Shown here: one piece after another, positions 33,232-58,460 of the stretch
Layout of the letters: every line of letters starts with the position of its first letter
Position numbering within the stretch: position 1 is the first letter of the stretch
Translations under genes and position numbers: made by a program
Notes under the pieces: generated by a model
Seen by the model: only the letters and a program-made list of their open reading frames with translations
Told to the model about the DNA's origin: nothing
The model's database searches: none
NCBI GenBank assembly: GCA_903932865.1
Contig: CAIZHQ010000023.1
Location: 94,631-158,630, forward strand
DNA: 64,000 bases
Source: an uncultured Burkholderiales bacterium
GTDB lineage: Bacteria > Pseudomonadota > Gammaproteobacteria > Burkholderiales > Burkholderiaceae_C
Reading direction: 5' to 3'

Positions 33232-33291
33232 GGTGATCCCTCCTCTAACGGTGCAGCGCCAAGCAGTGTCTGTTGGCGCTGCACGCACGCG

Positions 33292-35025
33292 TCAAACGGC
33301 GTAGCCCTTGTTAGGCAATGCGCCCATGATTTTGGGCGTGTTGAGTTGGCGTGGCTTGATGCGACCGCCTTGGGCTTTGAGCCAGGTTTCCACCACATCC
33401 CAAACCTGCTTGTTGCCCTGGTTGCGGGCTTCTTCGGCCACCGGGGCCCAGCCCGCCACCTTGTACTTTTTACCCGCTTCGATGAGCTGCCCTTTCAAGC
33501 GCATATCGCCAATGCGTTGGCCTGCCTTGGACACCGGGTTGCAGCTGTATGTCAGGCCCCCTACGCGCACCATGTCGCCGCCTTGCTGGTAATAAGGGTC
33601 AGGGTTGAACAGGTTGTCGGCCACATCTTCGAGCACGGTCTTGATGGTCTCGCCCGTCATCTCGGTCACGGTGGCATACGAGTAGGTGGTGGCGGTCATG
33701 TCAAGCAGCCACTCGCGCGTGATGGCCTGGCCCGGCAACAGTGTGGTGCCCCAGCGAAAGCCCGGTGAGAACGCGATGTCTGCGCCCTGCACGTCCAGCA
33801 GCGCGTCGATCAGCAACTGGTCGCCCGTGCCGTTGAAGTTGCCACGGCGGTACAGCAGGCCATCGGTCACGGCCAACTTTTCGGCCAGCTTGCTTTCATA
33901 GGGCGCTCGGATCTTGGTGATCAGAGCATCCATCTCCTTGTCGGCGGGCAGCATGTTGGAGAACACGGGCAGCAATTTGTAGCGGAAGTCGCTGACTTTT
34001 TTGTCTTTGACTTCGAAGTCGAGTACGCCCAAAAACTTGCCGTTCGAGCCCGCATTGGTGACGATGGTCTTGCCGCCTTTGTTCGAGACGATGGAAGCGA
34101 CCGGCATGCCGTCGTGCGTGTGGCCGCCCATGATGGCGTCGATGCCGCTGACACGCGTGGCCATCTTCAGGTCGACGTCCATGCCGTTGTGGCTGAGGAC
34201 GACGACGACCTGGGCGCCTTTGCCACGGGCCTCGTCCACCATCTTTTGCATGTTCTCGTCCTGGATGCCGAACTCCCAGTCGGCCACCATGTAACGCGGG
34301 TTGGCAATCGGGGTGTAGGGGAAGGCCTGGCCGATGATGGCGCAAGGCACGCCATTGATCTCGCGGATCACATAGGGCTTGAACACCGGGTCGCCAAAGT
34401 CATTGGTCTTGACGTTCTGAGCGACAAAGTCCACCTTGCCAGCGAAATCTTTCTCGATGATTTCCTTCACGCGCGCCATGCCCAAGGTGAATTCCCAGTG
34501 ACCGGTCATCACATCCACGCCCAGCAGTTTGCAGGCGTCGACCATGTCCTGGCCGTGGGTCCACAAGCTGGTGCCCGAGCCTTGCCAGGTGTCACCGCCG
34601 TCGAGCAGCAAAGCGCCGGGGCGGCTGGCCTTCATGCGCTTGACCAGCGTGGCCAGGTGGGCAAAGCCCCCGACTTTGCCGAAGCGCTTGGCGGCTTTTT
34701 CAAAGTTCAGGTAAGTCAGCGCATGGGCCTCGGCCGTGCCCGGGCGGATCTTGGCCGCTTGGAGCAAATACTCACCCACCAAATGCGGCAGGTTGCTCTG
34801 CATGGCGCCAATGCCTAAGTTGATGCTGGGCTCACGGAAATAAATCGGCTTGAGCTGGGCATGGCAATCGGTCATGTGCAGGAAAGACACATTGCCGAAC
34901 TTGGGAATGTCATAAAGACCATTGGCGGCCGTGTTGGCACTGGACTGGGCGTAGGCGCCCATGCTCATGCCAGCCATCGTGCCAGCACCCATGACTTGGA
35001 TAAATTCGCGCTTGGAGAGATTCAT
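33292..35025 (-). CDS. soxB: Thiosulfohydrolase SoxB
   Basis: FLHMTDCHAQLKPIYFREPSINLG, LLDGGDTWQGSGTSLWT, GHWEFTLG, SHNGMDVDLKMA, GGHTHDGMP. Confidence 0.95.
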   Translation of the reverse strand: MNLSKREFIQVMGAGTMAGMSMGAYAQSSANTAANGLYDIPKFGNVSFLHMTDCHAQLKPIYFREPSINLGIGAMQSNLPHLVGEYLLQAAKIRPGTAEAHALTYLNFEKAAKRFGKVGGFAHLATLVKRMKASRPGALLLDGGDTWQGSGTSLWTHGQDMVDACKLLGVDVMTGHWEFTLGMARVKEIIEKDFAGKVDFVAQNVKTNDFGDPVFKPYVIREINGVPCAIIGQAFPYTPIANPRYMVADWEFGIQDENMQKMVDEARGKGAQVVVVLSHNGMDVDLKMATRVSGIDAIMGGHTHDGMPVASIVSNKGGKTIVTNAGSNGKFLGVLDFEVKDKKVSDFRYKLLPVFSNMLPADKEMDALITKIRAPYESKLAEKLAVTDGLLYRRGNFNGTGDQLLIDALLDVQGADIAFSPGFRWGTTLLPGQAITREWLLDMTATTYSYATVTEMTGETIKTVLEDVADNLFNPDPYYQQGGDMVRVGGLTYSCNPVSKAGQRIGDMRLKGQLIEAGKKYKVAGWAPVAEEARNQGNKQVWDVVETWLKAQGGRIKPRQLNTPKIMGALPNKGYAV

Positions 35026-35055
35026 ATTTGCAACCACTGATATATACGGAGCTAA

Positions 35056-35078
35056 AAAACCCGGACCAGCCGGGTTTT
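35056..35078 (-). terminator. Rho-independent terminator/attenuator between soxX and soxB
   Basis: AAAACCCGG-accag-CCGGGTTTT; minus-strand U tract. Confidence 0.65.
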
Positions 35079-35085
35079 CATGGGC

Positions 35086-35742
35086 TTATTGGTTAACGGG
35101 CGACTTGGGGTCGAGCAACAAGCCCACGATGTGGCGGACCTGTGTTTCGTTCAGGATGCCCATGTGCCCAGCGCGGGGCATGTTGGAGCAGGCGTTGTAG
35201 GCCTTGGCGTTCCAGATCTTGCCCCAGGTGTATTCCACAATGGCCTTGCTGGCCGGATCGTCGGGGTTGGACACGCCGCGAATCTTGCCGTAGTTATAGA
35301 GGCTAGGACCAATGGTGCCGTAAGAAATTTCTTTCTTATCCATCTGGTGGCAGTTGTAACAGTTGCCACCGTTCACGCCCGTGGCCGAATCGGTCCAGGT
35401 CAGGCCGCGTCCGCTTTGGGCAATGGCTTCGCCTTGCTTCCAGTCACCGATGAACTTGCCGTCTGAGGGCCACTTGATGGCTTTGAGGTTGGCTTCTTCG
35501 ATGCGCTTGGCTGTTTTTTCATCCAAGGGCTTGCCTGCCACGTCGGCTTCACTGCAAACGCGGTTGGTTTCGTCAGTAGCGGTGATACGCTCCACTTTCA
35601 CATGACTCTGGTCACGGAAAGAAGCCTTGACGATCTTGTCAGTCAGCGCATTGAGCTCGGCAACAGAAGGGCCGGAGGCGCAGCCAGCTGCCACCAAAGC
35701 GGCCGCCAAGCTGGCCAAAACGAGTTGGGTCTTTTTGTTCAT
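35086..35742 (-). CDS. soxX: Sulfur oxidation c-type cytochrome SoxX
   Basis: Lipoprotein-like signal, GNCYNCHQMD heme site, YGTIGPSLYNYGKIRG; between soxA and soxB. Confidence 0.9.
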   Translation of the reverse strand: MNKKTQLVLASLAAALVAAGCASGPSVAELNALTDKIVKASFRDQSHVKVERITATDETNRVCSEADVAGKPLDEKTAKRIEEANLKAIKWPSDGKFIGDWKQGEAIAQSGRGLTWTDSATGVNGGNCYNCHQMDKKEISYGTIGPSLYNYGKIRGVSNPDDPASKAIVEYTWGKIWNAKAYNACSNMPRAGHMGILNETQVRHIVGLLLDPKSPVNQ

Positions 35743-35760
35743 GAGGTTCTCCTGTTCAGA

Positions 35761-36564
35761 TCAGCGCTTGATGGCCGGGGCAACGGAAGCTGCGCCTTTG
35801 GCATTCACACCCAAGTAGGTGGACAGGGCAATCGTGGCATCGCTGCCAAAACCAGGGTAAGGGAACCGCTGCTGGCGGTAGCAGTCGTTCAGGCGCAATT
35901 GCATGCTCCACATCTGACCGTTGGAGACGCGGTAAGCGGGCCAGGCGGCAAAACCAACGCCATCACCGGGGTTCTTGGTCAGGATAGGCAAGTCTTGCAA
36001 GCGGATGCGTTTGCCTTCTTCACCGTGGCAAGAGGCGCAAGAAAAGTCGTGCGGCCCACCACGCTGGAAGAACAGGCGTTTGCCCACTTCGTAGAAGGTT
36101 TTTTCTTGGGAGTGCGCTTGTGACAAGTTAAAGCGCTGCCCTTTGGACTCGGCGGCGATCCAGGTAGCCAAAGCCGTCACGTTGGCCATCTCGCCGCGAC
36201 CAAATGCGGTCTTGGAGATTTCGGCGGCATTGAAACCTTGCAGGGTTTCCATGCAGGACACCAAGCGGGACTCCAAGTCTTGCATGCGCTGCGTGTCAGC
36301 GAAGTATTTGGGCAACTCGACAAAAGCACCTTTGACCACGCCAGGGCCTTTGCCCAAATCGCATTTTTCGAGCGATGCGTTTTTGGGGCCCCGCGCTTTT
36401 TTCCAGAGGTCTTCGCCTTTGGCTTCAAAGAGTTCAGCGGGGTTACCGTCTTGCAGCATGGCGCGGTATTCGTCAATGCCTTGGCTGGCGGTCTTTTGGG
36501 CCAGCGCGGGCATGGTACTCAAGGCCAGTGCCGCTGCCATGGTCAAACTTGATGCTTTGTTCAT
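35761..36564 (-). CDS. soxA: Sulfur oxidation c-type cytochrome SoxA (single CxxCH)
   Basis: CASCHGEEGKRIRLQDLP, WSMQLRLNDCYRQQRFPYPGFGSDA; between soxZ and soxX. Confidence 0.92.
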   Translation of the reverse strand: MNKASSLTMAAALALSTMPALAQKTASQGIDEYRAMLQDGNPAELFEAKGEDLWKKARGPKNASLEKCDLGKGPGVVKGAFVELPKYFADTQRMQDLESRLVSCMETLQGFNAAEISKTAFGRGEMANVTALATWIAAESKGQRFNLSQAHSQEKTFYEVGKRLFFQRGGPHDFSCASCHGEEGKRIRLQDLPILTKNPGDGVGFAAWPAYRVSNGQMWSMQLRLNDCYRQQRFPYPGFGSDATIALSTYLGVNAKGAASVAPAIKR

Positions 36565-36595
36565 TGTCACCTCTGTTGGTATTTTTAAAACGCGA

Positions 36596-36623
36596 AAAGG
36601 GTGAAGTCGTGGCTTCACCCTTT
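36596..36623. other. Intercistronic 11-bp perfect hairpin between soxZ and soxA
   Basis: AAAGGGTGAAG-tcgtgg-CTTCACCCTTT. Confidence 0.7.
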
Positions 36624-36640
36624 GTTCTGTCATCGCACGA

Positions 36641-36952
36641 TCACGAAACGGTGGCTTCGTCCGTGCGGGTATCGCCCTTGTTGTCTTTCCAGGTCACAGC
36701 AATCTTGTCGCCAGCTTTCGCGCCTTTGACGGCGAATTGCAGGAAGGGGTTTTTCGACACAGCGGGGCCCCACTCGGCGGAAAACACGTCTTTGCCGTTG
36801 AGTTTGGCTGTCACTTCCTGGATGAACCAGGCGGGCACGGTTTTGCCGGAAGCGTCTTTGCGTTGACCGGTTTCCATTTCGTGGCTCATGAGCACACGAA
36901 CGGTTGCTTTGTCACCAGAGGCCTGGGCACGGATGCGCATTGGATCTGCCAT
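36641..36952 (-). CDS. soxZ: Thiosulfate oxidation carrier complex protein SoxZ
   Basis: MADPMRIRAQASGDKATVRVLMSHEMETGQRKDASGKTVPAWFIQEVTAKLNGKDVF... Confidence 0.93.
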   Translation of the reverse strand: MADPMRIRAQASGDKATVRVLMSHEMETGQRKDASGKTVPAWFIQEVTAKLNGKDVFSAEWGPAVSKNPFLQFAVKGAKAGDKIAVTWKDNKGDTRTDEATVS

Positions 36953-37004
36953 TTTTCTCTCCTAATCTTTCATTGAATCGATGTATGAGGGTGTGCACAG
37001 GGGC

Positions 37005-37460
37005 TTAGCCGCCGCAACCGCCCAAAGTGACCTTGACTTCTTTCTTGGCCCACAAAGCTTTGCCGTCGTTCATGATGGCCACAGCGTAGACATCCGAGGA
37101 CTGGCCCATTTTGGCGCGGGTCGAGAAATTGGCGTCGACCGCATCGGTCACGTAAAACATGGCCACCAAAGCGGATGGGTTCTTCTCGACCATGATCAGC
37201 AACTGCTTGACGCCAGACAGTGCTGTGCTGGCACCCAATGGCACAACCGCACCGTTTTCGGCGATGTCCGGACCTATGATGGTCACGTCTTTGCTTTCGG
37301 TCAGGCTGGTCGCGCCTGCGGCCTTGGCAGCGTCTTGCACCGACTTGGCGTCGAATGCGGCTTTGTTGAAAGCGGCGTGGGCAAACTGTGGGAAACCCGC
37401 AGTGGCCAAGAGGCCAGCCACAACAGCGCTTTGCTTGAGTGTCTCGCGACGGTTTTGCAT
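37005..37460 (-). CDS. soxY: Thiosulfate oxidation carrier protein SoxY
   Basis: Signal peptide; C-terminal carrier motif ...VKVTLGGCGG*. Confidence 0.95.
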   Translation of the reverse strand: MQNRRETLKQSAVVAGLLATAGFPQFAHAAFNKAAFDAKSVQDAAKAAGATSLTESKDVTIIGPDIAENGAVVPLGASTALSGVKQLLIMVEKNPSALVAMFYVTDAVDANFSTRAKMGQSSDVYAVAIMNDGKALWAKKEVKVTLGGCGG

Positions 37461-37529
37461 CTGATATCTCCTTGATGATTGAGTGATGCTATTGAAACAG
37501 GTTCAGAAGTGCAACGGGTATATCCCGTA

Positions 37530-38603
37530 TTACTTGCTGGCCCCCTTGGAAATCCATTCAGCAATTTGCTTGGCGTCGGCATCAGGCAGCGACTGGGGTG
37601 GCATGGGAATTTGACCATACACGCCCACACCACCGGCCTTGATTCTGCCAACCAAATAATCGGTTTTACCCGCTTGCTTTTTGGCAATTTCATTGAAGCC
37701 AGGGCCCACAATCTTCTTGTCCACACCGTGGCAAGCTGTGCAACTGTGCTTGTTCAGGAGCGCAATCGCTGCTTTGGCTTCGTTGTTTTCAGGCTTGGCA
37801 GCGGCCACTGGGGCTGCTGCGGCCACCGGAATACCAGCCTTGGGCTCGGGTTTGGTGGTGTCTGCGCCGCGCTGTGGGCCAACGATGCGGTTTTGCTCTT
37901 GCAAGTTACCGTGGGCATTTCGCGCAAAGTCTGGGAGCAATGATGCCACTTTGGCTTCCGGCGTGCAGTCCTTCATGCAAATCTTGTTGGCGGTGTCGGG
38001 TTTTTTAACGCCACCGAATTCATGGCCAGGCCACATCGCATGGGCCGTGGTCATGCCGTTGCGGTTGGGCATGCGGGCCTGCACTTCGGCGATGTTTTTG
38101 TCAGACAACACATAGTTATCCGGGACGATGTTGGCCAAGTTCAGCATGAAGGCGGTCACGGCATACACCTCCTCCGTGGTCAGTGTCTTGGGGTTGGTCC
38201 AAGGCATGGCCCGGTTGATGTAATCCCACAAAGTGGAAACAGTGGACACCTTCATGATGGTGGTGCGACCCGGAAAGTCCGTGCGCTGCAAATTTGCTAC
38301 ACGGCCGTTCTTGATGTCTTCTGCGGTGGTGCCACCTATGAGTGGACTGAACACCTCGTTGGACTCACCAAACACACCGTGGCAATGGGCGCACTTGGCC
38401 TCCCACACATCCTGTCCTTTGGCCACCGAGCCCGAGCCGGCAGGCAGCCCCTTGAAGTCGGGGCGCACATCAATGTCCCACTTGGCCACTTCTTTGGGTG
38501 TGGCAGCTCGCCCCACACCCGGGTATTGGGTGCTTTGCGCAGTTGCCAAACCAGCAGCTGCCATCAACGTCACAGTCAAAACAGCATTACGAAACCTGGA
38601 CAT
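37530..38603 (-). CDS. soxD: Sulfite/sulfane dehydrogenase cytochrome subunit SoxD
   Basis: Two CxxCH motifs (CAHCHG, CTACHG); directly after soxC. Confidence 0.88.
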   Translation of the reverse strand: MSRFRNAVLTVTLMAAAGLATAQSTQYPGVGRAATPKEVAKWDIDVRPDFKGLPAGSGSVAKGQDVWEAKCAHCHGVFGESNEVFSPLIGGTTAEDIKNGRVANLQRTDFPGRTTIMKVSTVSTLWDYINRAMPWTNPKTLTTEEVYAVTAFMLNLANIVPDNYVLSDKNIAEVQARMPNRNGMTTAHAMWPGHEFGGVKKPDTANKICMKDCTPEAKVASLLPDFARNAHGNLQEQNRIVGPQRGADTTKPEPKAGIPVAAAAPVAAAKPENNEAKAAIALLNKHSCTACHGVDKKIVGPGFNEIAKKQAGKTDYLVGRIKAGGVGVYGQIPMPPQSLPDADAKQIAEWISKGASK

Positions 38604-39951
38604 TTTTCACCTCACCGTTTTCCTGGACCAACCACGACTGGATGGCATTGTTGTGATAAATAGAGCGCGTACCACGCACCGCGCGCAGTTGCTGATAAGT
38701 TGGCTGCACATGGCCTGTTTCGTCTTGTGCACGACTTTGGATGATGGCGGGCTTGCCGTCCCAGACCCAATCCAGATTGAAACGGGTCAAGGCTTTGGAC
38801 AGAACTGGCGTCTCTAGGCGTGCCTGACGCCAGTTGCGACCGCCATCGGTGGAAACATCCACGCGCTTGACCTTGCCTTTGCCCGACCAAGCCAGGCCGG
38901 TGATGTTGTAAAAGCCCTTATCGAGCAAAACCTGACCACCCGAAGGCGTGGTGACCACACTCTTGATTTCCTGCAAATTGGTGTACTGGCGGTGCAGCCC
39001 GCTGGGTTGCAAATCGATGTAGTGAATGGCCTCGTCTTTGGCGGCATAGGGCTTGTCGCCCACTTCGATGCGGCGCAGGTACTTGACCCAGCTCACACCT
39101 TGCACGCCAGGCACCACCAAACGCAGGGGGTAGCCGTTTTCGGGGCGCAACATTTCACCGTTTTGTCCATAGGCCACGATGACTTCGCCCGATGTGATCA
39201 GGCTCATCGGGATGGTGCGGGTCATGGACGAGCCGTCACCGCCTTCAGCCAATACGAACTTGCCGTTTTTGAGGTCAGCACCCGCCAACTCCAGCAAGGT
39301 GATCAAGGGCACGCCCGTGAACTCGCTGCAGGAAATCATGCCGTGTGTGTACTGCACAGTGGGCACCGCCACGTTACCCCAATCGACAGCCGTGTTGGCA
39401 CCACACTCGATGAAATGGAAACGCGACACAGAAGGCAAACGCATGATCTCGTCCATGGTGAAGACCATGTTCTTTTTGACCATGCCGTTGATCATGAAGC
39501 GGTGCTTGGATGGGTCGATGTCCCACCAGCCTTGATGATGACGCTCGAAGTGCAAACCGCTGGGCGTGACGATGCCAAACAAGGATTGCAGTGGCGCGAA
39601 CGAAACAGAGGCTTGTGTGGTTTGTGTCAGGCCAGGGCTCTGACGGCGCTGCAAGTTCGCTTCGAACTTGGAGGGCTTGCCATAACCTTCAACGGCCACA
39701 CCTTGGCCCAAGCCCACCGCATGCTCCGGCAAATTGAGGATGTTGGGGTCTCCGCCTTCAACGGGCACCGGGTTGCCCTGGGCCATGGCCATAGGGGCAG
39801 CCGCGCCTGCAGCCGCGGCTGCAAAGGCATTGCGAATGAAGTCACGGCGGCCTTTTTTGCCTTCAGCAAAGACCTCCTTGATACCCGTTGGGGTCAGGAA
39901 GTTCTCAGGTGCTTTTTGCACCCTTCCTGAATTGATGTTGTCTGCGTTCAC
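38587..39951 (-). CDS. soxC: Sulfite/sulfane dehydrogenase molybdopterin subunit SoxC
   Basis: TAT-like RRDFIRNAFAAAAAGAAAP; SUOX-fold motifs RFHFIECGANT, GMISCSEFTGVPLITLLELAG. Confidence 0.93.
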   Translation of the reverse strand: MNADNINSGRVQKAPENFLTPTGIKEVFAEGKKGRRDFIRNAFAAAAAGAAAPMAMAQGNPVPVEGGDPNILNLPEHAVGLGQGVAVEGYGKPSKFEANLQRRQSPGLTQTTQASVSFAPLQSLFGIVTPSGLHFERHHQGWWDIDPSKHRFMINGMVKKNMVFTMDEIMRLPSVSRFHFIECGANTAVDWGNVAVPTVQYTHGMISCSEFTGVPLITLLELAGADLKNGKFVLAEGGDGSSMTRTIPMSLITSGEVIVAYGQNGEMLRPENGYPLRLVVPGVQGVSWVKYLRRIEVGDKPYAAKDEAIHYIDLQPSGLHRQYTNLQEIKSVVTTPSGGQVLLDKGFYNITGLAWSGKGKVKRVDVSTDGGRNWRQARLETPVLSKALTRFNLDWVWDGKPAIIQSRAQDETGHVQPTYQQLRAVRGTRSIYHNNAIQSWLVQENGEVKNVQVS

Positions 39952-40277
39952 ACAAACTCCTTGTTGATTTGATCATTGATGTCCGCACCGATGGCCACTT
40001 GCGTGCACACCGCACGGCAAACCTTCGCTGCTGTGTCGTCTGCAATCCGATAAAACACCTGAGCGCCTTGACGGCGCTTGCCCAACACACCCGACCGGAA
40101 CAGGATGTTCAGGTGCTGCGACATATTGGGCTGGGCCACGCCGATGTTCTCGAGCAATTGCCCCACGTTTTTTTCACCTTTGCAAAGCGCACTGATGATG
40201 CGAAGCCGAATGGGTGTCGACATCACGGCAAACAAATCAGCCGCTTTGTCAAACATCTCATCTTTGTCCACTGTCAT
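39948..40277 (-). CDS. soxR: ArsR-family regulator (SoxR/BigR/SqrR-like), first gene of the sox operon
   Basis: DLFAVMSTPIRLRIISALCKGEKNVGQLLENIGVAQPNMSQHLNILFRSGVLGKRRQGAQVFYRIADDTAAKVCRAVC; ATGA overlap with soxC. Confidence 0.85.
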   Translation of the reverse strand: MTVDKDEMFDKAADLFAVMSTPIRLRIISALCKGEKNVGQLLENIGVAQPNMSQHLNILFRSGVLGKRRQGAQVFYRIADDTAAKVCRAVCTQVAIGADINDQINKEFV

Positions 40278-40298
40278 GTTGCCCTTACGATTAGGTTC

Positions 40299-40322
40299 AT
40301 ATATTCGGAAGTTCGAATATAT
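40299..40322. promoter_or_regulatory. Operator palindrome ATATATTCG-gaagtt-CGAATATAT (ATTC-N8-GAAT)
   Basis: Perfect 9-bp arms 21 bp upstream of the sox ArsR start codon. Confidence 0.8.
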
Positions 40323-40523
40323 ACGATAGGCGATGAATCTGAATCAGGGATTACACGGGGCTCGTTTCATGATCAGGACAAACCCTGATGAGAGTTTCCA
40401 TTCCTTCTGCATCGATCAAAACCAGTCGGAAGTGCCATGGACGATGGACGTCAACCCAGCCATACACATTCACAGTGAAAAAGCTGAGTGTTTGTCAACT
40501 ACCAAAGGCGAAGCTTTAAGGCC

Positions 40524-40847
40524 TCATTTGAACTTGTAGTGATCACGGTTGAGAACCGCTGCTACCGAAGTCACGTCCTCTGGAAACATGCCCAGATTGA
40601 GCTCCGTGTTGCATTGCTCCACCATGCCCCGCAGCAAGGAGGCGTTGTTGATACGACCCTGGGGTTTGTAAATAGCACTGCCATTGCCACCGACCTTGGA
40701 GACATGGCAGGCCACGCATTTGCTTTCGGCAATCAATTTTTCACCCAACTTGTAGTCCGCATCTTTGTAGATGGCCGGCTGCGCATGGGCAAAAGTTGCA
40801 CAAAAGAAACTGATACAAACCAGCGCGGTCTTGCTTGGGGTGTTCAT
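40524..40847 (-). CDS. Small c-type cytochrome (one CxxCH)
   Basis: Signal peptide, ESKCVACHVSKVGGNGSAIYKPQG. Confidence 0.75.
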   Translation of the reverse strand: MNTPSKTALVCISFFCATFAHAQPAIYKDADYKLGEKLIAESKCVACHVSKVGGNGSAIYKPQGRINNASLLRGMVEQCNTELNLGMFPEDVTSVAAVLNRDHYKFK

Positions 40848-40867
40848 TCAAGTCTCCCATCAAAAAA

Positions 40868-40895
40868 GCCGCTCAAGGGCAGACCCTAGAGCGGC
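40868..40895 (-). terminator. Rho-independent terminator
   Basis: GCCGCTC-aagggcagacccta-GAGCGGC flanked by A and A/T tracts. Confidence 0.75.
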
Positions 40896-40966
40896 AAAAA
40901 AAGCCACGAGTACCAATCGAGCTTTCTAAATCATGCCATGTTGGTCAAACCCGTAAGGGCTTGAAT

Positions 40967-41275
40967 TCACTTGGCGCCAGCCAGAATCCAGGTGGCCAAA
41001 GTCAGGGCGTCGGCATCGCTCAAAGCGGCTTGGGCGGGCATGGGCACTGGGCCCCATTTGCCCGAACCACCGGCTTTGATGCTCTTGGCCAAAGTGGCTG
41101 CTGCGTCCTTTTGGCCACCGTATTTTTTGGCCACGTCTTGGTAAGAAGGGCCCACCATCTTTTTGTCCACCGCATGGCAGGCCATGCAAGCGTTTTTCTT
41201 GGCCAAGTCCATGTTGGCGAAGGCAGGGGCTGACATCAAGGCAGAGACGGCAACAGCAGCAAAAATCAGTTTCAT
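40967..41275 (-). CDS. Class I cytochrome c (c551/c552-like)
   Basis: Signal peptide, NACMACHAVDKKMVGPSYQDVAKKY, GKWGPVPMPAQ. Confidence 0.88.
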   Translation of the reverse strand: MKLIFAAVAVSALMSAPAFANMDLAKKNACMACHAVDKKMVGPSYQDVAKKYGGQKDAAATLAKSIKAGGSGKWGPVPMPAQAALSDADALTLATWILAGAK

Positions 41276-41432: not shown

Positions 41433-41813
41433 TCACTCAAATGCAGGCTGCTCGGGTTTGACCACAGTTTTGCCAGCAGCAGCCCAAGCGTCAAAACCAC
41501 CCGCAATCGATGCAACATTCAGGTAGCCCATACTTTGCATGGTTTGCGCCGCCAAGGCTGCGCGGCCGCTGGTCTTGCAGTACAGCACCACCTTCAGGTC
41601 GCGGCCCGACAAGGCGGGCGTGCCGCTGAGCTTGAACTCGAGTAAGCCCCGGGGCACCAGAATCGCGCCGGGCAAATGGCCTGCGGCAAATTCATCGGCC
41701 TCGCGCACATCCATCAAAACATCGGCTTGCTGAATGGCTTCATCGGCGTCTTGCAAGGCGATCTCGCGGACATGGGCTTTGGCTTGCAGGACCAGATCAT
41801 GGGCTGTTTTCAT
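41433..41813 (-). CDS. Cytoplasmic rhodanese-like sulfurtransferase
   Basis: DVREADEFAAGHLPGAILVPRG; active-site loop YCKTSGRAALAAQTM. Confidence 0.88.
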   Translation of the reverse strand: MKTAHDLVLQAKAHVREIALQDADEAIQQADVLMDVREADEFAAGHLPGAILVPRGLLEFKLSGTPALSGRDLKVVLYCKTSGRAALAAQTMQSMGYLNVASIAGGFDAWAAAGKTVVKPEQPAFE

Positions 41814-41843
41814 GGTGTCTCCTTAAAGTTCAAACAATGGGTT

Positions 41844-43229
41844 TCAGGGTGCCAACTGGGCGTTCAGGCCCTGCAAGCTTTGCACAGAGAGGCTACCGGT
41901 CAAGGCGTCCAGTTGCAAGCGGGTCTGCAGCAACTCGGTCTGCGCGCGCAGCCAGCCCAGTTCGGACTGGGCCGCGTCGTTTTGAGCTTGCAGCAAATCC
42001 AAGGTGGTGCGGTCACCCACTTGGCGGCCCAAGCGTGTGGCATCTAATCTGGCGGTGCTGGCTTTCCATGAGGCTTGCAGTGCCGACAAACGGGCAGGCC
42101 CGGTTTGCAAAGCCAACCATACCGAGCGGGCTTGCTGCTGGGTTTGCTGTACGGCCAACTCGTATTCGGCCTCGGCTTGCGCTTGCGCGCTTACGGCCTC
42201 TTGCAGTTTCGCGCTGCGGTAACCGCCGGTGAACAAGGGCACATTCAGGCTGAGGCCCACCATCTGCTGGCTTTGTGTGTTGCTGGCTGGGCCAAAGTCG
42301 CCGTCGCCGCTCAATCGGTCACGCCCGGCTTGGGCCACCAGGTCCAGCGTGATACCGCCGCGGGCTTGGTGCTTTTTCACTTCTTGCCGTGCCACATCCC
42401 ACTGGGCTTTTTTCAGGCGCAAACCGGTGTTGGCTTCGCGCACTTGGGCCAGCACCTGGTCCAAAGGCGGCGATGCGGCCGCAGACTCAGCGGCTTTTGG
42501 CGTCAGGGGTTTCAGGGACTCGGTGGGCAATCGGGTGGATTCGGCCAACACTTGGCGGGCCATTTGCAACTCGCTGTCGGCGGCCAGCCATTGCGCTTGC
42601 AAGCCCGAAGCACGGGCTGCCGCTTCATGTGTGTCGGTCACCGGCAAATCGCCAATGGCAAAACGGTCTTGGGCTTCGATCAGCGAGCGCTGCACGGCCG
42701 CGTATTGGCTTTTCAAAACTTGCAGTTGGCGCTCGGCCAGCAACACGTTGAAATAGCGCTGCACCGAGAGCAGCATGAACTGCTGCTGGGCCAGATCGGC
42801 GCGCCATTCGGCCACGCCTGCAGCTTGCTGCAGTTGCGCTTGTTGGGCTTGGCGTTCGGGGCTGTACAGGGCTTGCTTGGCTTGCAAGGACCAGCGGGTG
42901 GACAACGCTGCGCTGGCCGAGGTGGCAAAACTGCCGGGCATCGGCGGCTGACCGCCGACCGCAAACTGCGCACCTGTGGTACTCGTCTCAGCCGACATGG
43001 CCCCCACCGTGGCGCTGCCCATCACGACGGGTCGCCACAGTGATTGGGCCTGCGCTTCGTAGGCTTGCACCGAAGAACGGGTGGCGTGCACCACCTGCAT
43101 CTGCGGGTCGTGCTGGCGTGCCTGCTCCCAGGTTTGCAACAAGTCCAGCGCCTGCGCCGAAGGGACGAAAAGCGCGGCGGCCAGCAGCGCACCGCTCAGG
43201 CGTTTGAGGTTCAATCGTGAGGGGGTCAT
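41844..43229 (-). CDS. TolC-family outer membrane efflux protein
   Basis: 461 aa, signal peptide, duplicated coiled-coil OEP pattern; gene order with RND components. Confidence 0.87.
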   Translation of the reverse strand: MTPSRLNLKRLSGALLAAALFVPSAQALDLLQTWEQARQHDPQMQVVHATRSSVQAYEAQAQSLWRPVVMGSATVGAMSAETSTTGAQFAVGGQPPMPGSFATSASAALSTRWSLQAKQALYSPERQAQQAQLQQAAGVAEWRADLAQQQFMLLSVQRYFNVLLAERQLQVLKSQYAAVQRSLIEAQDRFAIGDLPVTDTHEAAARASGLQAQWLAADSELQMARQVLAESTRLPTESLKPLTPKAAESAAASPPLDQVLAQVREANTGLRLKKAQWDVARQEVKKHQARGGITLDLVAQAGRDRLSGDGDFGPASNTQSQQMVGLSLNVPLFTGGYRSAKLQEAVSAQAQAEAEYELAVQQTQQQARSVWLALQTGPARLSALQASWKASTARLDATRLGRQVGDRTTLDLLQAQNDAAQSELGWLRAQTELLQTRLQLDALTGSLSVQSLQGLNAQLAP

Positions 43230-43247
43230 GGCGCGCTGGCTTTCTGA

Positions 43248-43454
43248 TCAGCCGCGCTCAACGCCCAGCTTGCCGACGATGGACTCCATCAGGCACCACT
43301 TGGTGAGGGCGCTTTGCAGCAGGTTGGCCCCCACAAAGGCAGTGAACGCCAGCCACCATTCGCTTACAAAAAGGGGACTGCCCTGCACGCCCAAAGCCAA
43401 AGACAACAGCACAAAGGTGCCAGCGACCAAACGAACGATTTGCCAAGATTTCAT
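43248..43454 (-). CDS. DUF2892 (YgaP-type) small membrane protein
   Basis: MKSWQIVRLVAGTFVLLSLALGVQGSPLFVSEWWLAFTAFVGANLLQSALTKWCLMESIVGKLGV. Confidence 0.8.
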   Translation of the reverse strand: MKSWQIVRLVAGTFVLLSLALGVQGSPLFVSEWWLAFTAFVGANLLQSALTKWCLMESIVGKLGVERG

Positions 43455-43486
43455 GGTGATTTACTCCAGTTGATGAAAGAAAAAAT

Positions 43487-46400
43487 TCAAGCGCCGTACT
43501 TTTTTCTGTACGCCACGTAATACAAAGTCGGGATGACAACCAGCGTCAGCACGGTAGAGACAAAAATGCCGAAGATCAGCGAAATGGCCAGACCGTTAAA
43601 GATCGGGTCGTCCAGAATGAAGAAAGCGCCGATCATGGCCGCCAGGCCCGTCAGCATGATGGGCTGGGCACGGGTGATGGCCGACTGCACGATGGCGCGG
43701 CCAAATTCCATGCCGCTTTGCACCTGCAGGTTGATGAAGTCCACCAACAAGATCGAGTTGCGCACGATGATGCCCGCCAGCGCGATCATGCCGATCATGC
43801 TGGTGGCGGTGTACTGCGCGTGCAGCAGTGCATGGCCCGGCATGACCCCGATGATGGTCAAAGGAATCGGCGCCATGATGATGAGTGGCGTGAGGTAAGA
43901 ACCAAACTGCGCCACGACCAGCAAATAGATCAGGATCAGGCCCACACCGTAGGCTGCACCCATGTCGCGGAAGGTCTCGTAGGTGATCTGCGACTCGCCA
44001 TCCCACTTGATGCTGTAGCCACGCCAAGCGTCGTCGGGCTGGTGGATGAAGTATTCCTCTAGCTTTTGACCATCCGGACCTTTGATCTGCGCAATGTCGC
44101 CGCGCATTTTGAACAGGCCATACAAAGGACTGTCGACCTTGCCTGCCATGTCGGCCATGACAAAGTTCACCGGCAGCATGTTTTTGTGGACGATGGGTTG
44201 CTCGCGCAGCGTGTCGCTCACGGTGACCAACTCGCGAATGGCCACCACTTTGCCCGTGGCGCTTTTCACGCCCAACTGCAGCAAGGCGTCCAGGTCGCCA
44301 TGCAACTGCGCGGTCAATTGGATCAGCGCAGGCACTGGGTATTTGCTGCCGTCGTGCAAATAGGTGGTGTCTTCGCCCGCCAAGCCTGCGCGCAAAGTGG
44401 TCACGATGGCCTGCTGCGACACGCCCAAGGCAGCGGCCTTGCGGCGGTCCACCAATAAAACTTTGCGCGGCGCAGCGGCGATGGCGCTCTCGTCCACATC
44501 CACCACGCCTTCGGTTTTCTCGAACACCGCACGCACGGCTTTGGACACTTGGCGACGCCCTTCAGCGTCAGGCCCATAAATTTCAGCCACGATGGGCGAC
44601 ATCACGGGCGGGCCGGGCGGCACTTCGACCACCTTGACGTTGGCCCCGTGCTTGCGGCCAATCTCTTGCAAAGCCGGACGCACGCGGGTGGCGATCACAT
44701 GGCTCTTGTCGCTGCGCTCGGATTTACCCACCAAGTTGACCTGGATGTCCCCCAGCTCAGCGCCTGCACGCAGGTAGTACTGGCGCACCAAACCATTGAA
44801 GTTGATGGGTGAGGCCGTGCCCACGTAAGCCTGATAGTGCGTGACCTCGGGCACCGTGGCCAAGTGACCACCCAGCTCGCGCATGACGGCAGCGGTTTTT
44901 TCCAGAGGCGTGCCTGCGGGCATGTCCACCACCACCTGGAACTCCGACTTGTCGTCAAAGGGCAGCATCTTGAGCATGACCAAACCGGTCGCAGGCAAGA
45001 CCAAAGACAAGGCAATCAAACCGGCAATGCCCAGACCCAACAGCTTGCGGTTGCGCCCGCCTGATTGAGGGTCGAGCAAAGGTTTAAAAACTTTTTCGAA
45101 CAGGGGTTCGAGTTTGGCGCTCAGGCCGGTGTGGCCTCCTGCCGCGTCATGCGCATGACCAGTCAGAGGCTTCATCCACATGCCCGCCAACCAGGGGGTG
45201 ATGACAAAGGCAATGGCCAGTGACAGCAACATGCCCAAGCTCGCATTGATCGGAATCGGGCTCATGTAAGGGCCCATCAGGCCGCTCACAAACGCCATGG
45301 GCAAGAGCGCAGCGATCACGGTGAAGGTGGCCAAGATGGTGGGGCCGCCGACTTCGTCCACCGCACCGGGGATGATTTCACGCAAGGATTTCCCGGGGAA
45401 CAGCTGCTGGTGTCGGTGGATGTTTTCCACCACCACGATGGCATCGTCCACCAAAATCCCGATGGAAAAAATCAGCGCAAACAGCGACACGCGGTTGAGC
45501 GTGAAGCCCCAGGCCCAGGACGCGAACAACGTGGCCGTCAGCGTCAAGATCACGGCCACACCCACAATCGCGGCCTCGCGGCGGCCCAGCGCCATGAACA
45601 CCAGTGCCACCACCGACGCGGTGGCAAACAGCAGTTTCTGGATCAGCTTTTGCGCTTTGTCGTTGGCGCTTTCGCCGTAGTTGCGCGTCTCCACCACTTG
45701 CACGTTGTCAGGGATCACGGTGCCTTGCAGTTTGGCCACACGGCTTTTCACGCCGTTGGCCACGTCGATGGCGTTTTCGCCCGACTTTTTGGTGATCGAC
45801 AGCGTGACGGCGGCGAATTCTTCACCCCCGTTTTTTTCGTTGTTGCCGTGCCAGACATAGCGTGCAGCCGGCATGGGGCCGTCCTGCACATCGGCCACGT
45901 CTTTCAAAAACACCGGCTTGCCCTGCACCACCTGGACCACCAGGTCGGCCACTTCAGAGGCCTGCGACAGGTGCGGCCCGGCTTCGATGGCCACGCTTTG
46001 GTTGCCACCCAACAAGTCGCCCACTGGCAGCCCCAAGTTGGCCGACTGCAAAGCCATGCGCAAATCGTGCACGGTGACGCCCGAGCCGTTCATGCGCTGC
46101 GGATCAATTTGCACCAGCACCGCACGGCGCGGCCCGCCAAGGGTGACCACATCGCGGGTGCCGGGCACGCGCTTGATGTCGGCTTCAATGCTGTGCGCCA
46201 CGCGCTCCAGATCAAAAGCGCTCACATCCGCATTTTTCCCGTGCAGCGTGAGCGACACGATCGGCACATCGTCAATGCCCTTGGGCTTGATCAGCGGTTC
46301 AGGCAAACCCAGGTTGCGTGGCAACCAGTCGGCGTTTTCGCGGATTGTGTCGTGCAACTTGACCAGCGCCTCGGTGCGCGGCACGCCCACCTTGAACTGC

Positions 46401-46702
46401 ACCGTCAGGATCGCCACGCCCGGGCGCGAGACCGAGTACACGTGCTCAACGCCCGCGATTTTGGACAGCACCTGCTCGGCCGGAATGGCCACCATTTGTT
46501 CCACGTCACGCACCGACGCCCCCGGGAAAGGCGCGATCACGTTGGCCATGGTCACGTTGATTTGCGGCTCTTCTTCGCGGGGTGTCACCATGACGGCAAA
46601 CACGCCCAGCAAAAACGCCACCAGCGCCAGCAAAGGCGTGATCTGCGCGCTTTGGAAGGCTGCTGCGATGCGGCCCGAAATACCCATTTTTGGCTCGTTC
46701 AT
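43487..46702 (-). CDS. RND efflux pump permease (AcrB-type)
   Basis: 1071 aa; SIGILVDDAIVVVENIHRH, GASVRDVEQMVAIPAEQVLSKIAGVEHVYS. Confidence 0.93.
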   Translation of the reverse strand: MNEPKMGISGRIAAAFQSAQITPLLALVAFLLGVFAVMVTPREEEPQINVTMANVIAPFPGASVRDVEQMVAIPAEQVLSKIAGVEHVYSVSRPGVAILTVQFKVGVPRTEALVKLHDTIRENADWLPRNLGLPEPLIKPKGIDDVPIVSLTLHGKNADVSAFDLERVAHSIEADIKRVPGTRDVVTLGGPRRAVLVQIDPQRMNGSGVTVHDLRMALQSANLGLPVGDLLGGNQSVAIEAGPHLSQASEVADLVVQVVQGKPVFLKDVADVQDGPMPAARYVWHGNNEKNGGEEFAAVTLSITKKSGENAIDVANGVKSRVAKLQGTVIPDNVQVVETRNYGESANDKAQKLIQKLLFATASVVALVFMALGRREAAIVGVAVILTLTATLFASWAWGFTLNRVSLFALIFSIGILVDDAIVVVENIHRHQQLFPGKSLREIIPGAVDEVGGPTILATFTVIAALLPMAFVSGLMGPYMSPIPINASLGMLLSLAIAFVITPWLAGMWMKPLTGHAHDAAGGHTGLSAKLEPLFEKVFKPLLDPQSGGRNRKLLGLGIAGLIALSLVLPATGLVMLKMLPFDDKSEFQVVVDMPAGTPLEKTAAVMRELGGHLATVPEVTHYQAYVGTASPINFNGLVRQYYLRAGAELGDIQVNLVGKSERSDKSHVIATRVRPALQEIGRKHGANVKVVEVPPGPPVMSPIVAEIYGPDAEGRRQVSKAVRAVFEKTEGVVDVDESAIAAAPRKVLLVDRRKAAALGVSQQAIVTTLRAGLAGEDTTYLHDGSKYPVPALIQLTAQLHGDLDALLQLGVKSATGKVVAIRELVTVSDTLREQPIVHKNMLPVNFVMADMAGKVDSPLYGLFKMRGDIAQIKGPDGQKLEEYFIHQPDDAWRGYSIKWDGESQITYETFRDMGAAYGVGLILIYLLVVAQFGSYLTPLIIMAPIPLTIIGVMPGHALLHAQYTATSMIGMIALAGIIVRNSILLVDFINLQVQSGMEFGRAIVQSAITRAQPIMLTGLAAMIGAFFILDDPIFNGLAISLIFGIFVSTVLTLVVIPTLYYVAYRKKYGA

Positions 46703-46712
46703 GGGGCTGCTC

Positions 46713-47774
46713 TCAAGGTTTGGTGGTGACGGTGGCGGGGTCGGTGACGACTTGCTCGCCCGTGCTCACGCCCGACAAAACTTCCACGTTCAGGCCATTC
46801 ACACGGCCCAAGCGCACTTGGCGCAAACGGGGCTTGCCTTGTGCATCCATCACGTACACGCCCGTCATTTCGGCGCGGCGCACGATGGCCGACAAGGGCA
46901 ACACCACCGAATCAACCTTGTTGTTTTGGGCGGTGCTGGAAGCCTGAACGCCTGACACCCACACGCGGGCAAACATGCCGGGCACCAGGCCCTCGATGCC
47001 AGCGGGCAAAGCCAGGCGCAGTTGTGCGGTGTGCGTGACCGGGTCCACCGATGGCAGAAGTTGGGCGGTGCCCGCCTTCACCGGCTGGGCGCTGTGACCA
47101 GCGATCTCGTAGCGCACCGACGCGAGTTGGCTGCGCACGCCACTGAGCATCGACTGCGGCACAGCCGCGCTCACGCGCAATGCCGAAGGGTCGTGCAGGG
47201 TCAGCATGGGGCGGCCGGGCATGGCCATGTCACCCAAAGTGACGGCCACATCGGACACCACACCATTAAAAGGGGCGCGCACACTGAAGAAACCAGTTTG
47301 TGTTTGCGCCGCGCGGGTCTGGGCCTGCTGGGCCTGCACCTGGGCGCGGGCCGCTTCCCACTGGGCTTGGGCGCGGTCGAGCGCACCCTGGCTGATGTAT
47401 TGCTTTTGAAAGAGTTGTTTTTGACGATCGAGCTCTTTGCTGGCCACGTTCAGGTTGGCTTGCGCGGCTTCGAGTTGGGCGCTGCTGCCCGCCACCTGCT
47501 GCTGGGCGGCGCTGGCGTCGACGCGCAGCAGCTCTTGCCCAGCGTGCACACGGTCACCGGCTTTGACATTCAGGCCCACGATGGTGCCTGCCACTTGGGT
47601 AGACAAGGTGGCTTGGCGCACCGCTTCGACCACGGCGTCCAGGCTGACCTGGGCGGCACCGGCCGTGTTGGCGGTGACTGCCATGGTTTTGGTGCTGTCT
47701 GCATTGGCCCACACGGGGCCCATGTGCACAGCAGAAAGGGCCAAGGCCGAAGCCAGGATCAAGCGTCTTTTCAT
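46713..47774 (-). CDS. RND periplasmic adaptor (membrane fusion protein)
   Basis: Signal peptide MKRRLILASALALSAVHMGPVWA; lipoyl/hairpin GTIVGLNVKAGDRVHAGQELLRVD; FFSVRAPFNGVVSDVAVTLGD. Confidence 0.9.
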   Translation of the reverse strand: MKRRLILASALALSAVHMGPVWANADSTKTMAVTANTAGAAQVSLDAVVEAVRQATLSTQVAGTIVGLNVKAGDRVHAGQELLRVDASAAQQQVAGSSAQLEAAQANLNVASKELDRQKQLFQKQYISQGALDRAQAQWEAARAQVQAQQAQTRAAQTQTGFFSVRAPFNGVVSDVAVTLGDMAMPGRPMLTLHDPSALRVSAAVPQSMLSGVRSQLASVRYEIAGHSAQPVKAGTAQLLPSVDPVTHTAQLRLALPAGIEGLVPGMFARVWVSGVQASSTAQNNKVDSVVLPLSAIVRRAEMTGVYVMDAQGKPRLRQVRLGRVNGLNVEVLSGVSTGEQVVTDPATVTTKP

Positions 47775-47843
47775 CGAAACATCTCCGTTTAACCGTCGGG
47801 TGGCAAAAGCCTGGGTAATTTTCAAGTTTGCGTAATTGCTTAT

Positions 47844-47859
47844 TTGCATGTTAATGCAA
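47844..47859. promoter_or_regulatory. Palindrome TTGCAT-gtta-ATGCAA in the efflux/ArsR divergent intergenic region
   Basis: Perfect 6-bp arms between the divergent start codons at 47774 (-) and 47923 (+). Confidence 0.6.
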
Positions 47860-47922
47860 TGATACAATCTTTTTAAACCTGCCGTCAATTCAATGCAAAA
47901 AAGCTGTAAATTGGAGCGCACC

Positions 47923-48258
47923 ATGAAAGACCTGCCCGACAAAGCCTTGGACCAAATCGCTGCCTATTTCCAGGCGCTGTCTGAGCCCACGCGCCTAAAA
48001 ATCCTGAATTTGCTGCGTGAGCAAGAGCGCAATGTGGGCGAGTTGGCCCAGCTCAGCGGCTACTCGGCGGCCAACGTCTCACGCCACCTGTCTTATCTGG
48101 CGCAACACGGCATGGTGGAACGCGAAAGCCGTGGCGTCAGCGTGTTCTACCGCGTGAGCGATCCGTCCATATACGACCTGTGCGATTTGGTCTGCGGCAA
48201 CATCGCCCGCCGTTACGAACAAGCCTCCAGTGACCGCGCCGTGTTCACGCCCACCTGA
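47923..48258 (+). CDS. ArsR/SmtB-family transcriptional regulator
   Basis: AYFQALSEPTRLKILNLLREQERNVGELAQLSGYSAANVSRHLSYLAQHGMVERESRGVSVFYRV; start chosen for the ggag upstream. Confidence 0.88.
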   Translation: MKDLPDKALDQIAAYFQALSEPTRLKILNLLREQERNVGELAQLSGYSAANVSRHLSYLAQHGMVERESRGVSVFYRVSDPSIYDLCDLVCGNIARRYEQASSDRAVFTPT

Positions 48259-48305: not shown

Positions 48306-48782
48306 TCAAGCTGTCAACACCCGCCCATCGCCATCGAGCACCCGCACCTGAATGGGAATGCCCTGGCCCACACTTTGGGTGACGGTACAAAAACCTTCAA
48401 ATTGACCGAGCACCCGGTCAAGCTGTTCCAGCTGGGCCGCTGGCACACCCAGGTGCAAAGTGGCCACCATGTTCAACACGCGCATACGGCCTTCGGCATT
48501 GCGCCCCACCTCGGCTTGCACTTCACAGCGCAAAGGCTCGGGTTCTTGTTTGAATTTGCGCAATGCAAACAGCAGCGAATCGCTCAGGCAATTGCCCACC
48601 GCGGCACACAGCAACTGAACTGGCGAGGGCCCCAGCCCCGTGCCCAAAGGCGCAGGCTCGTCGCTGGTCAGCACTGGCATGTTCTTGTCAAAGCGGATGT
48701 CAAAGCGGTAATCGTGCTGCTGGGTCAATGTGACCAAAATCTGTTTTTCACTCACCGGGCTCCACTTTCTGATCATGACCAC
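48306..48782 (-). CDS. OsmC-family protein
   Basis: PLGTGLGPSPVQLLCAAVGNCLSDSLLFALRK with Cys residues in OsmC-like positions. Confidence 0.8.
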   Translation of the reverse strand: MVMIRKWSPVSEKQILVTLTQQHDYRFDIRFDKNMPVLTSDEPAPLGTGLGPSPVQLLCAAVGNCLSDSLLFALRKFKQEPEPLRCEVQAEVGRNAEGRMRVLNMVATLHLGVPAAQLEQLDRVLGQFEGFCTVTQSVGQGIPIQVRVLDGDGRVLTA

Positions 48783-54437: not shown

Positions 54438-54902
54438 TCAATGCTTGGCAGGCCCTGCGGCTTTGGCCGCCGCGTCAAAACCGCCTTTGGCCTGCCACTC
54501 TGACATGCCGCCTTGCAAGATGCGCACGTTCTCCCAGCCTGCGACGCGCAACGCAAAACCGGCTTGGGCCGACAGCGACCCGGTGTTGCAGTAAATCAGC
54601 ACGGGCTTGTTTTTGGGGATGGTGTTGCGCTTGGCCAGCACCTGACGCCAGTCCATGTTGACCGCGCCAGGAATGTGCCCCTTGGCAAATTGCGCCGGGT
54701 CACGCGCATCGATCACCACCATCTTGGGCCACTCGTCTTTGGGAATTTGCTCGGCAAAAATCACACCGCCGCCGTAGTCCACAAATTCCAAATACCCCTC
54801 CATTTCGTCAATCACCGCAGCTTTGTTGTCGGCGTTTACGGCTGGGGCCAGCATCAAACTAACAGCGGTGGCTATTGCAAGGGTGGTGAAACGGATGCTC
54901 AT
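54438..54902 (-). CDS. Periplasmic rhodanese-like protein
   Basis: Signal peptide MSIRFTTLAIATAVSLMLAPAVNA; VVIDARDPAQFAKGHIPGAVNMDW; YCNTGSLSAQAGFALR. Confidence 0.87.
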   Translation of the reverse strand: MSIRFTTLAIATAVSLMLAPAVNADNKAAVIDEMEGYLEFVDYGGGVIFAEQIPKDEWPKMVVIDARDPAQFAKGHIPGAVNMDWRQVLAKRNTIPKNKPVLIYCNTGSLSAQAGFALRVAGWENVRILQGGMSEWQAKGGFDAAAKAAGPAKH

Positions 54903-55052
54903 GATTTATCCAGGTTGAGTTATATTAGCTACTGCGAATATTATGTGCCTAGGTTGTGTCCATTGCATCAATGCTTGAGGGATCTGTCAGGAACTTTTTA
55001 TCGTTAAGGCCAGGATTGACGCTGTGGGATATGTAATGGTCCATTCCTGATA

Positions 55053-55082
55053 TTTCAGTTATTTCTGAAAATTCGGAATTTT
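55053..55082. promoter_or_regulatory. Overlapping palindromes TTTCAG-ttattt-CTGAAA and AAAATTC-g-GAATTTT upstream of the GbsR/MarR gene
   Basis: Both inverted repeats perfect; just upstream of a TAGAAT -10-like box and the ATG at 55098. Confidence 0.6.
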
Positions 55083-55097
55083 GGTTAGAATCATGAC

Positions 55098-55694: not shown

Positions 55695-55712
55695 CCCCCA
55701 AAGAAAGCCACC

Positions 55713-57077: not shown

Positions 57078-57132
57078 TGCACCGCTCCCTGCTGCGCTGT
57101 ATCTGAAAGTGAAATGAACTTGAAAGGCGACC

Positions 57133-58131: not shown

Positions 58132-58314
58132 ACATGATACGAAATATCCAAGTGGCTTATGTCAAGAGACCCTGACTCAGACTGAAACCTCGACTCAAGG
58201 CAATCAAGGTCAAAAAATGAGCCGCCGCGGGTTTTGAGGAGGCTCCACACTTTAGAAAAGCAGTCCTCCTCTTTAGACGACATAAGGGGCACACAGCTAA
58301 ATTCGTGGACTGGT

Positions 58315-58460
58315 TTATGCCGGAAGTCCCAGGCTTTTTCGACATTGGAAGGTTCCGAGTGATCCCAATGACACTTTGATTCGCTTCTCGTCATAACAGA
58401 GAATGCAGGCGACAAGGCGCTGAATCAGATGCTCGTTGGATGGCCTGGTCCAGATGCTGA
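58315..58460 (-). pseudogene. Remnant of an IS3-family transposase C-terminus
   Basis: Minus-strand frame reads ...HLIQRLVACILCYDEKRIKVSLGSLGTFQCRKSLGLPA*, resembling the IS3-type ...YNEKRIKxSLGxLSPxxYRxSLGL end; no intact ORF. Confidence 0.65.

Follow-up and report, generated by a model that had tools for sequence, protein, structure and literature searches.

In E. coli, the ygaVP locus brings together an ArsR regulator, a rhodanese and a DUF2892-type membrane domain, and the regulation exerted by YgaV is known to be linked to sulfide. Operons under the persulfide-responsive repressors BigR, SqrR and SoxR have ArsR control, DUF2892, rhodanese and sulfide:quinone reductase (SQR). We analysed a 64,000-nucleotide stretch of an uncultured freshwater Burkholderiales bacterium (contig CAIZHQ010000023.1, positions 94,631 to 158,630; hereafter the window) in which ArsR, rhodanese and DUF2892 accompany a tripartite efflux pump of the resistance-nodulation-division (RND) type. 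Unlike ygaVP, the window has separate genes and a tripartite pump, and its ArsR lacks the two-cysteine site of YgaV. The BigR-, SqrR- and SoxR-type operons share all four of their components with the pump family, whereas the ArsR of the window falls short of the BigR model and the window operon has neither persulfide dioxygenase nor YeeE. The pump itself has the fold, adaptor and TolC architecture of the hydrophobe/amphiphile efflux-1 (HAE-1) pumps AcrAB/AcrD and MexJK, yet it forms a distinct clade with ~22% identity to AcrD/AcrB, carries arginine instead of lysine in transmembrane helix 10 (TM10), is nearly free of cysteine and has a dedicated DUF2892 partner.

A comparable operon, Dsui_3440-3443 of Azospira suillum PS, encodes a protein of unknown function, an RND permease, an SQR and an RND adaptor; the available parts of its description report that under H2S it was strongly expressed and gave a fitness signal in Bar-seq, that extracellular sulfur was produced and that a separate DUF2892 gene went up roughly tenfold (PMC5358917). 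Those same parts mention no rhodanese, TolC or ArsR, unlike the window (PMC5358917). An earlier note on this DNA knew of no characterised system so composed. Our literature search found no paper defining this RND family, its DUF2892 partner or its substrate, but RND pumps had already been noted among genes near sulfane-sulfur-responsive ArsRs (PMC12423496) and their sulfur link is not wholly new. RND genes in an Allochromatium pyrite transcriptome were set aside, as they are described there as CzcA-type.

We propose that the operon belongs to a distinct, unnamed tripartite RND family serving reactive-sulfur tolerance through the export of sulfane sulfur, a reading to which we give a probability of about one half (0.52). 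Very probably the module is genuine, of ancient origin and linked with reactive sulfur.

The pump operon

The operon and its associated features are as follows:

46713-47774, minus strand: RND periplasmic adaptor (membrane fusion protein), gene 1; TIGR01730, 191.5 bits against a cut-off of 94.9; zero cysteines
43487-46702, minus strand: RND permease, gene 2; PF00873, 491 bits; AcrB/AcrD-like fold; zero cysteines
43248-43454, minus strand: DUF2892/YgaP-like protein with two transmembrane helices, gene 3; PF11127 ('YgaP-like_TM'), 42.1 bits against a cut-off of 25.3; 68 residues
41844-43229, minus strand: TolC-type outer-membrane channel, gene 4; PF02321, 150 bits; zero cysteines
41433-41813, minus strand: single-domain rhodanese, gene 5, no evident signal peptide; PF00581, 73.5 bits; loop CKTSGR
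47923-48258 (alternative start 47893), plus strand: divergent ArsR-family repressor; NF033788, 82.5 bits; alpha5 LCDLVC (CxxxC), no alpha2 cysteine
47844-47859, strandless: perfect palindrome TTGCAT-gtta-ATGCAA, likely (predicted) ArsR operator; genome-unique exact match, adjoining the promoter, with a counterpart in L097
47859-47888, minus strand: sigma70-like operon promoter TTGACG-18-TATCAT; a consensus match only (1 found against 1.6 expected), its position being the argument
48306-48782, minus strand: OsmC-like thiol peroxidase, likely associated; PF02566, 46 bits; just past ArsR

Profile searches gave good family matches for all five minus-strand genes and the divergent ArsR in 41433-48258, and their upstream sequences and third-position GC content are consistent with genuine genes. 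In transcription order the genes run adaptor, permease, DUF2892, TolC, rhodanese, with gaps of 10, 32, 18 and 30 bp, so that the tightly packed operon, the divergent ArsR and the palindrome between them are all confirmed as previously described; the DUF2892 frame is corrected to end at 43248, and the OsmC gene beyond ArsR had been overlooked. The AcrB-type permease, adaptor and TolC of an HAE-1 pump are thus all present (PF00873, TIGR01730, PF02321). The rhodanese retains its catalytic cysteine in an intact active-site loop, CKTSGR, of the CX4R/CX5R form and is predicted to be active.

A distinct permease clade

A close relative of the permease was found in 92 of 201 sampled Burkholderiaceae genomes (46%), and a scan of a wider collection returned 80 named permease loci at 43-97% identity from beta-, gamma- and deltaproteobacteria, an alphaproteobacterial metagenome-assembled genome (MAG), Acidobacteria, Nitrospira, Calditrichota, Aliifodinibius and a Sporomusaceae MAG; the clade also reaches cyanobacteria (Pseudanabaena). 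Synteny confined to this strain, which the earlier note had named as fatal to its idea, is not what we see: the synteny with sulfur genes extends well beyond it. In the permease tree all 120 members were monophyletic with a support of 100, against 14 other RND permeases from the same bacterial family. The clade is also marked by its sequence: 'RNS' replaces the usual 'KNA' in TM10 and a PPGPPV motif occupies the porter loop in 113 of 114 members and in none of 40 control RND permeases. The TM10 lysine of the proton relay (KNA) is accordingly replaced in these 113 members, whereas it occurs in 21 of the 40 controls, those in which the motif was found. A degenerate DNA search for PPGPPV in 299 genomes was dropped as too unspecific.

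Cysteine is absent from the permease in 91 of the 114 members against 6 of the 40 controls (mean 0.28 against 1.95 cysteines, p 1.7e-15), which would fit a protein that handles sulfane sulfur but may be a single ancestral trait. Control adaptors are as poor in cysteine as those of the clade, so the adaptor showed no difference in this respect. Modelled with AlphaFold (pLDDT 87.6), the permease has AcrD as its best match in the PDB and takes the AcrD/AcrB fold with a TM-score of 0.86.

Gene neighbourhoods

We compared 36 target loci with 40 other RND permease loci of the same bacterial family, picked across the score range, using a radius of 2.5 kb around the permease. DUF2892 was present in 31 of the 36 target loci, ArsR in 30, OsmC in 12, SQR in 11 and thioredoxin in 7, each against 0 of 40 controls, and rhodanese in 13 against 2 of 40. 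TolC, present in 14/36 target loci and 22/40 controls, is not specific to this pump; an adaptor stood beside the permease in 35 of 36 relatives. Records annotated by others agree with this test. Type-I SQR was present in 46 genomes out of the 201 sampled. The permease accompanies it in 38 of these (odds 10, p 1.7e-9) and lies no more than 7 kb away in 28 of the 46. Co-occurrence of permease and SoxB was weaker (odds 2.3, p 0.006), with 9 of 18 same-contig pairs within 50 kb. An enrichment near sox and SQR genes, for which the earlier note had proposed a test, is borne out.

The commonest order in Burkholderiales is ArsR divergent from adaptor-permease-DUF2892, then TolC, thioredoxin, SQR, OsmC or rhodanese. 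Gene order is variable and rhodanese, in several unlike subtypes, is found in about one third of loci; an AhpD-like carboxymuconolactone decarboxylase-type (CMD) protein is a recurrent neighbour, with OsmC and thioredoxin. One subclade has a SLAC1/TehA-type anion channel gene downstream of DUF2892 (L045:6658-7686, L048:6994-8004 and L079:13556-14572; checked against Pfam in L045, assigned by clustering in L048 and L079), with a CsoR-family regulator in two of the three loci. Small proteins of ~94-117 residues that appear PII-like by eye adjoin the permease or DUF2892 in L108, L112, L118, L124 and L128; that of L128 has no Pfam match, and this locus also holds TauE and two rhodaneses. DUF302 proteins are present in L124 and, as assigned by clustering, in L072 and L128.

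The independently annotated relatives INDEPENDENTLY, at 40-55% identity, carry the same partners in other arrangements. Paracoccus denitrificans PD1222 has DUF2892-adaptor-permease flanked by SQR and, on the other side, by a two-cysteine ArsR together with a set of metallo-beta-lactamase (MBL)-fold protein, DUF2892, YeeE, DUF6691 and sulfurtransferase. In Azospirillum, SQR-DUF2892 is divergent from adaptor-permease-rhodanese and ArsR is also present, and in Pseudanabaena ArsR-DUF2892-SQR has rhodanese-adaptor-permease downstream. Two sphingomonad conjugative plasmids repeat the window's parts list in another order at ~40% identity, with CMD-TolC-DUF2892-SQR divergent from rhodanese-adaptor-permease-ArsR and cytochrome bd nearby; on these plasmids, pIBU218 (L207) and pISP1 (L208), the pump module would form a mobile sulfide-tolerance island. 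The SQRs are of different types and are similar to distinct solved enzymes: the 3sz0/3kpk type of Acidithiobacillus (473-577 bits), the mitochondrial type in Paracoccus (211 bits), and the 3hyv type of Aquifex in Pseudanabaena (339 bits). Because SQRs and rhodaneses of unlike types are involved, recruitment was repeated in different lineages, and this recurrent acquisition of unlike enzymes with one chemistry is the strongest argument for the proposed function.

In Vibrio metoecus OP3H (L091:8990-13159) the adaptor is in three pieces and the permease in two, a broken or misassembled copy, and the adjoining BigR-type ArsR repressor, DUF2892 and CoA-disulfide reductase-rhodanese are intact. VexLM of Vibrio cholerae is a candidate member of the pump family. 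VexLM has no known drug substrate (PMC10225521).

DUF2892 and the YgaP comparison

The modelled DUF2892 protein has helices at residues 3-22, 32-51 and 55-62, two of them long; by sequence it matched no solved structure. Cys54, at the end of TM2, is invariant in 33 of 33 homologues, and from the positive-inside rule, applied to K2/R8 and K52/K62/R67, we place it on the cytoplasmic (rhodanese) side. The protein has the transmembrane domain of YgaP; the fused rhodanese of YgaP is not found, the two being separate genes with TolC between them, and the window rhodanese is not especially YgaP-like (43 bits, against 122 bits to another rhodanese). The earlier note saw the essence of the system in YgaP modules split around TolC. 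We reject this pairing as the core, since of the three genes only DUF2892 is constant, rhodanese and TolC being optional; judged from the relatives, DUF2892 is the ancient and constant core partner of the pump.

Regulation

The palindrome TTGCAT-N4-ATGCAA occurs as a single exact copy (zero mismatches) in the 3.77-Mb genome, directly adjoins the -10 hexamer of the one sigma70-like promoter detected for the operon (47888..47859, minus strand) and has a near-identical counterpart, TATTTGCATgattATGCAAATA, in the equivalent intergenic region of the Roseateles relative L097. Since the pattern with up to one mismatch is not rare within the window (36 of 100 shuffles), its assignment as operator draws on position and genome-wide uniqueness. 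Among the relatives only L097 gave a close match, the others having AT-rich palindromes of different sequence or none. As the genome search gave no further exact copy, we propose no wider ArsR regulon.

The defining feature of persulfide-sensing ArsRs is a pair of cysteines, placed in alpha2 and alpha5 respectively (PMC10509353; PMC12423496). This pair is present in the pump-side regulators of L060, L062, L064, L073, L091, L094, L095, L098 and L102, and in those of Paracoccus and Azospirillum; for the scanned two-cysteine regulators the BigR model is the best or near-best match, yet they score under its cut-off. In L060 and L062, which belong to the window's own clade, two-cysteine repressors replace the CxxxC type in the same divergent position. 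The window ArsR has only Cys97 and Cys101 in alpha5 (LCDLVC, numbered from start 47893), plus Cys5 if 47893 is used; the ATG at 47923, preceded by TTGGAG, is the better start. In most relatives of this ArsR a further cysteine is present around alpha3. Pseudanabaena ArsR1, similar in sequence to the window type, has Cys28 in alpha2 and Cys86 in alpha5, which suggests that the window type derived from a two-cysteine form. Sulfane sulfur, As(III) and other thiol-reactive agents are all candidate inducers of the window ArsR; a mobility-shift assay with polysulfide-treated ArsR, as proposed earlier, presumes a persulfide sensor, but this protein is without the defining alpha2 cysteine.

The surrounding sulfur island

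Two further sulfur oxidation loci lie in the window:

32233-41275, minus strand: sox cluster of MBL-fold protein, SoxB, X, A, Z, Y, D and C, a two-cysteine ArsR and two small cytochromes c
61057-62835, minus strand: flavoprotein of flavocytochrome c sulfide dehydrogenase, next to a small cytochrome-like protein; PF21706, 152 bits; PF09242, 85 bits

The neighbouring sox cluster is complete, as stated previously and now supported by curated models: SoxB, A, X, Y, Z and C score above their cut-offs, and SoxD and the cytochrome at 40524-40847 are assigned from position and sequence only. Flavocytochrome c sulfide dehydrogenase, ~13 kb from the operon on the side opposite sox, is the local sulfide oxidase; a search of the window's own genome found no type-I SQR and this enzyme in its stead. 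It forms part of a second sulfur block (54438-63528) with a rhodanese, a MarR-type regulator, cytochrome bd oxidase, a YeeE-type sulfur transporter, a small cytochrome, a small DsrE-like open reading frame (by eye) and a BigR-like two-cysteine ArsR; with sox and the pump this makes a 30-kb sulfur island. The ArsRs at 39948-40277 and 63199-63528 are alike, each with an alpha2 cysteine (ALCKGEK and ALCNGEK, respectively) and CRAVC in alpha5, and are likely, on these motifs, to be the sulfane-sulfur repressors of sox and flavocytochrome c, separate from the pump ArsR. The host is Limnohabitans-like, its permease being 97% identical to the counterpart in Limnohabitans sp. 2KL-1 with identical gene order.

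Proposed mechanism and alternatives

To our knowledge, no pump has an established role in expelling reactive sulfur. In the mechanism that we propose, sulfide and thiosulfate would be converted by sulfide dehydrogenases (in most relatives SQR, here flavocytochrome c with Sox) into polysulfide, chains of elemental sulfur and persulfides of thiols, and ArsR, sitting at the palindrome over the promoter, would derepress the operon under stress from sulfur (or from linked thiols). Where a rhodanese is encoded, it would pass sulfane sulfur along in the cytoplasm, DUF2892 would carry it on the invariant Cys54 at the inner membrane face or aid the permease otherwise, and the cysteine-free permease with adaptor and TolC would expel polysulfide, S0 chains or low-molecular-weight per- and polysulfides. 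We infer the exported substrate and the DUF2892 relay and, from other organisms, a sulfide induction of the operon. Export of sulfane sulfur is the most likely mechanism, at about even odds, with metal-sulfide and organosulfur export as its main rivals. More tentatively, the family may be a dedicated exit for zero-valent sulfur, in which the products of SQR or flavocytochrome c, polysulfide or sulfur chains, would cross the cell envelope by way of a cysteine-free RND pump and its sulfur-carrying DUF2892 subunit.

Several points weigh against this proposal. The window operon is known here from its genes alone; its ArsR lacks the alpha2 cysteine and reaches 32.8 bits with the BigR model where 155 are needed; DUF2892 could be a plain accessory subunit without sulfur chemistry; and the p-values overstate independence, because the hidden Markov models were built from seeds in the target loci, which are themselves related by descent. 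One branch within the Gammaproteobacteria (L076, L080, L083, L084, L089 and L093) has adaptor-permease without DUF2892, ArsR or SQR within 6 kb; this branch includes Thiohalophilus, Thioalkalivibrio and Halochromatium, and the partners may be elsewhere in these genomes. The Azospira operon was likened to the window by gene content, not by placement in the permease tree, and according to the available parts of its description its deletion left the rate of H2S oxidation unchanged and its authors proposed the export of metal sulfides (PMC5358917).

That last proposal is one argument for the best-surviving, if unlikely, alternative, in which the pump exports metals, metal-sulfide clusters or metal-thiolates arising from sulfide stress and ArsR is a metal or metalloid sensor through its alpha5 CxxxC. 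NCBIfam labels the ArsR a metalloregulator, CsoR/RcnR-type regulators stand near one subclade, and a metal substrate stays conceivable because histidine is doubled in the permease clade (1.78% against 0.86% in controls), with H668 and H957 invariant. Conversely, the permease misses the cut-off of the heavy-metal (CusA/CzcA) RND model TIGR00914 (246.8 against 701 bits) and has AcrD/AcrB as its first fold match, czc, cop and mer genes were not seen to recur among the neighbours, a P-type ATPase cluster appears in 4 loci only, and the genes for SQR, rhodanese and OsmC do not count as metal genes.

Marginally less probable still is a broad pump for organosulfur electrophiles or mixed disulfides and polysulfides (thiosulfinate-like compounds, GSSG/GSSSG) within a thiol-redox defence kit, for which inorganic sulfane sulfur would be one inducer. 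An AcrB-like architecture suits organic substrates, and the OsmC, AhpD-like CMD and thioredoxin neighbours match gene kinds in Pseudomonas allicin-resistance islands, but the available parts of the account of those islands name no RND pump (PMC7119367), and the linkage to SQR, DUF2892, TauE/YeeE and sox is unexplained by this alternative alone. An ordinary multidrug pump in a sulfur island, surrounded by sulfur genes to which it is unrelated and with DUF2892 as an accessory subunit like AcrZ, would suit the PF00873/AcrB fold and the clade branch without sulfur neighbours, but is improbable given that DUF2892, SQR and OsmC accompany none of the 40 control RND permeases, which come from the same bacteria, that different SQRs and rhodaneses were recruited repeatedly, and that the curated multidrug RND subfamilies of NCBIfam are far off (444.7 bits at best against 1250 needed).

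Implications

The bacterial enzymes for making and destroying reactive sulfur have been well studied; the route by which its overflow gets out of the cell has not. A pump family that occurs in several phyla and on conjugative plasmids, and that is tied by controls to SQR, rhodanese and DUF2892, makes this question testable, and suggests a physiological role for RND pumps without a drug substrate. If the proposal is true, a zero-valent-sulfur exit route could account for the way in which sulfur gets outside such cells, and a function would be found for DUF2892 and for an orphan pump of Vibrio.

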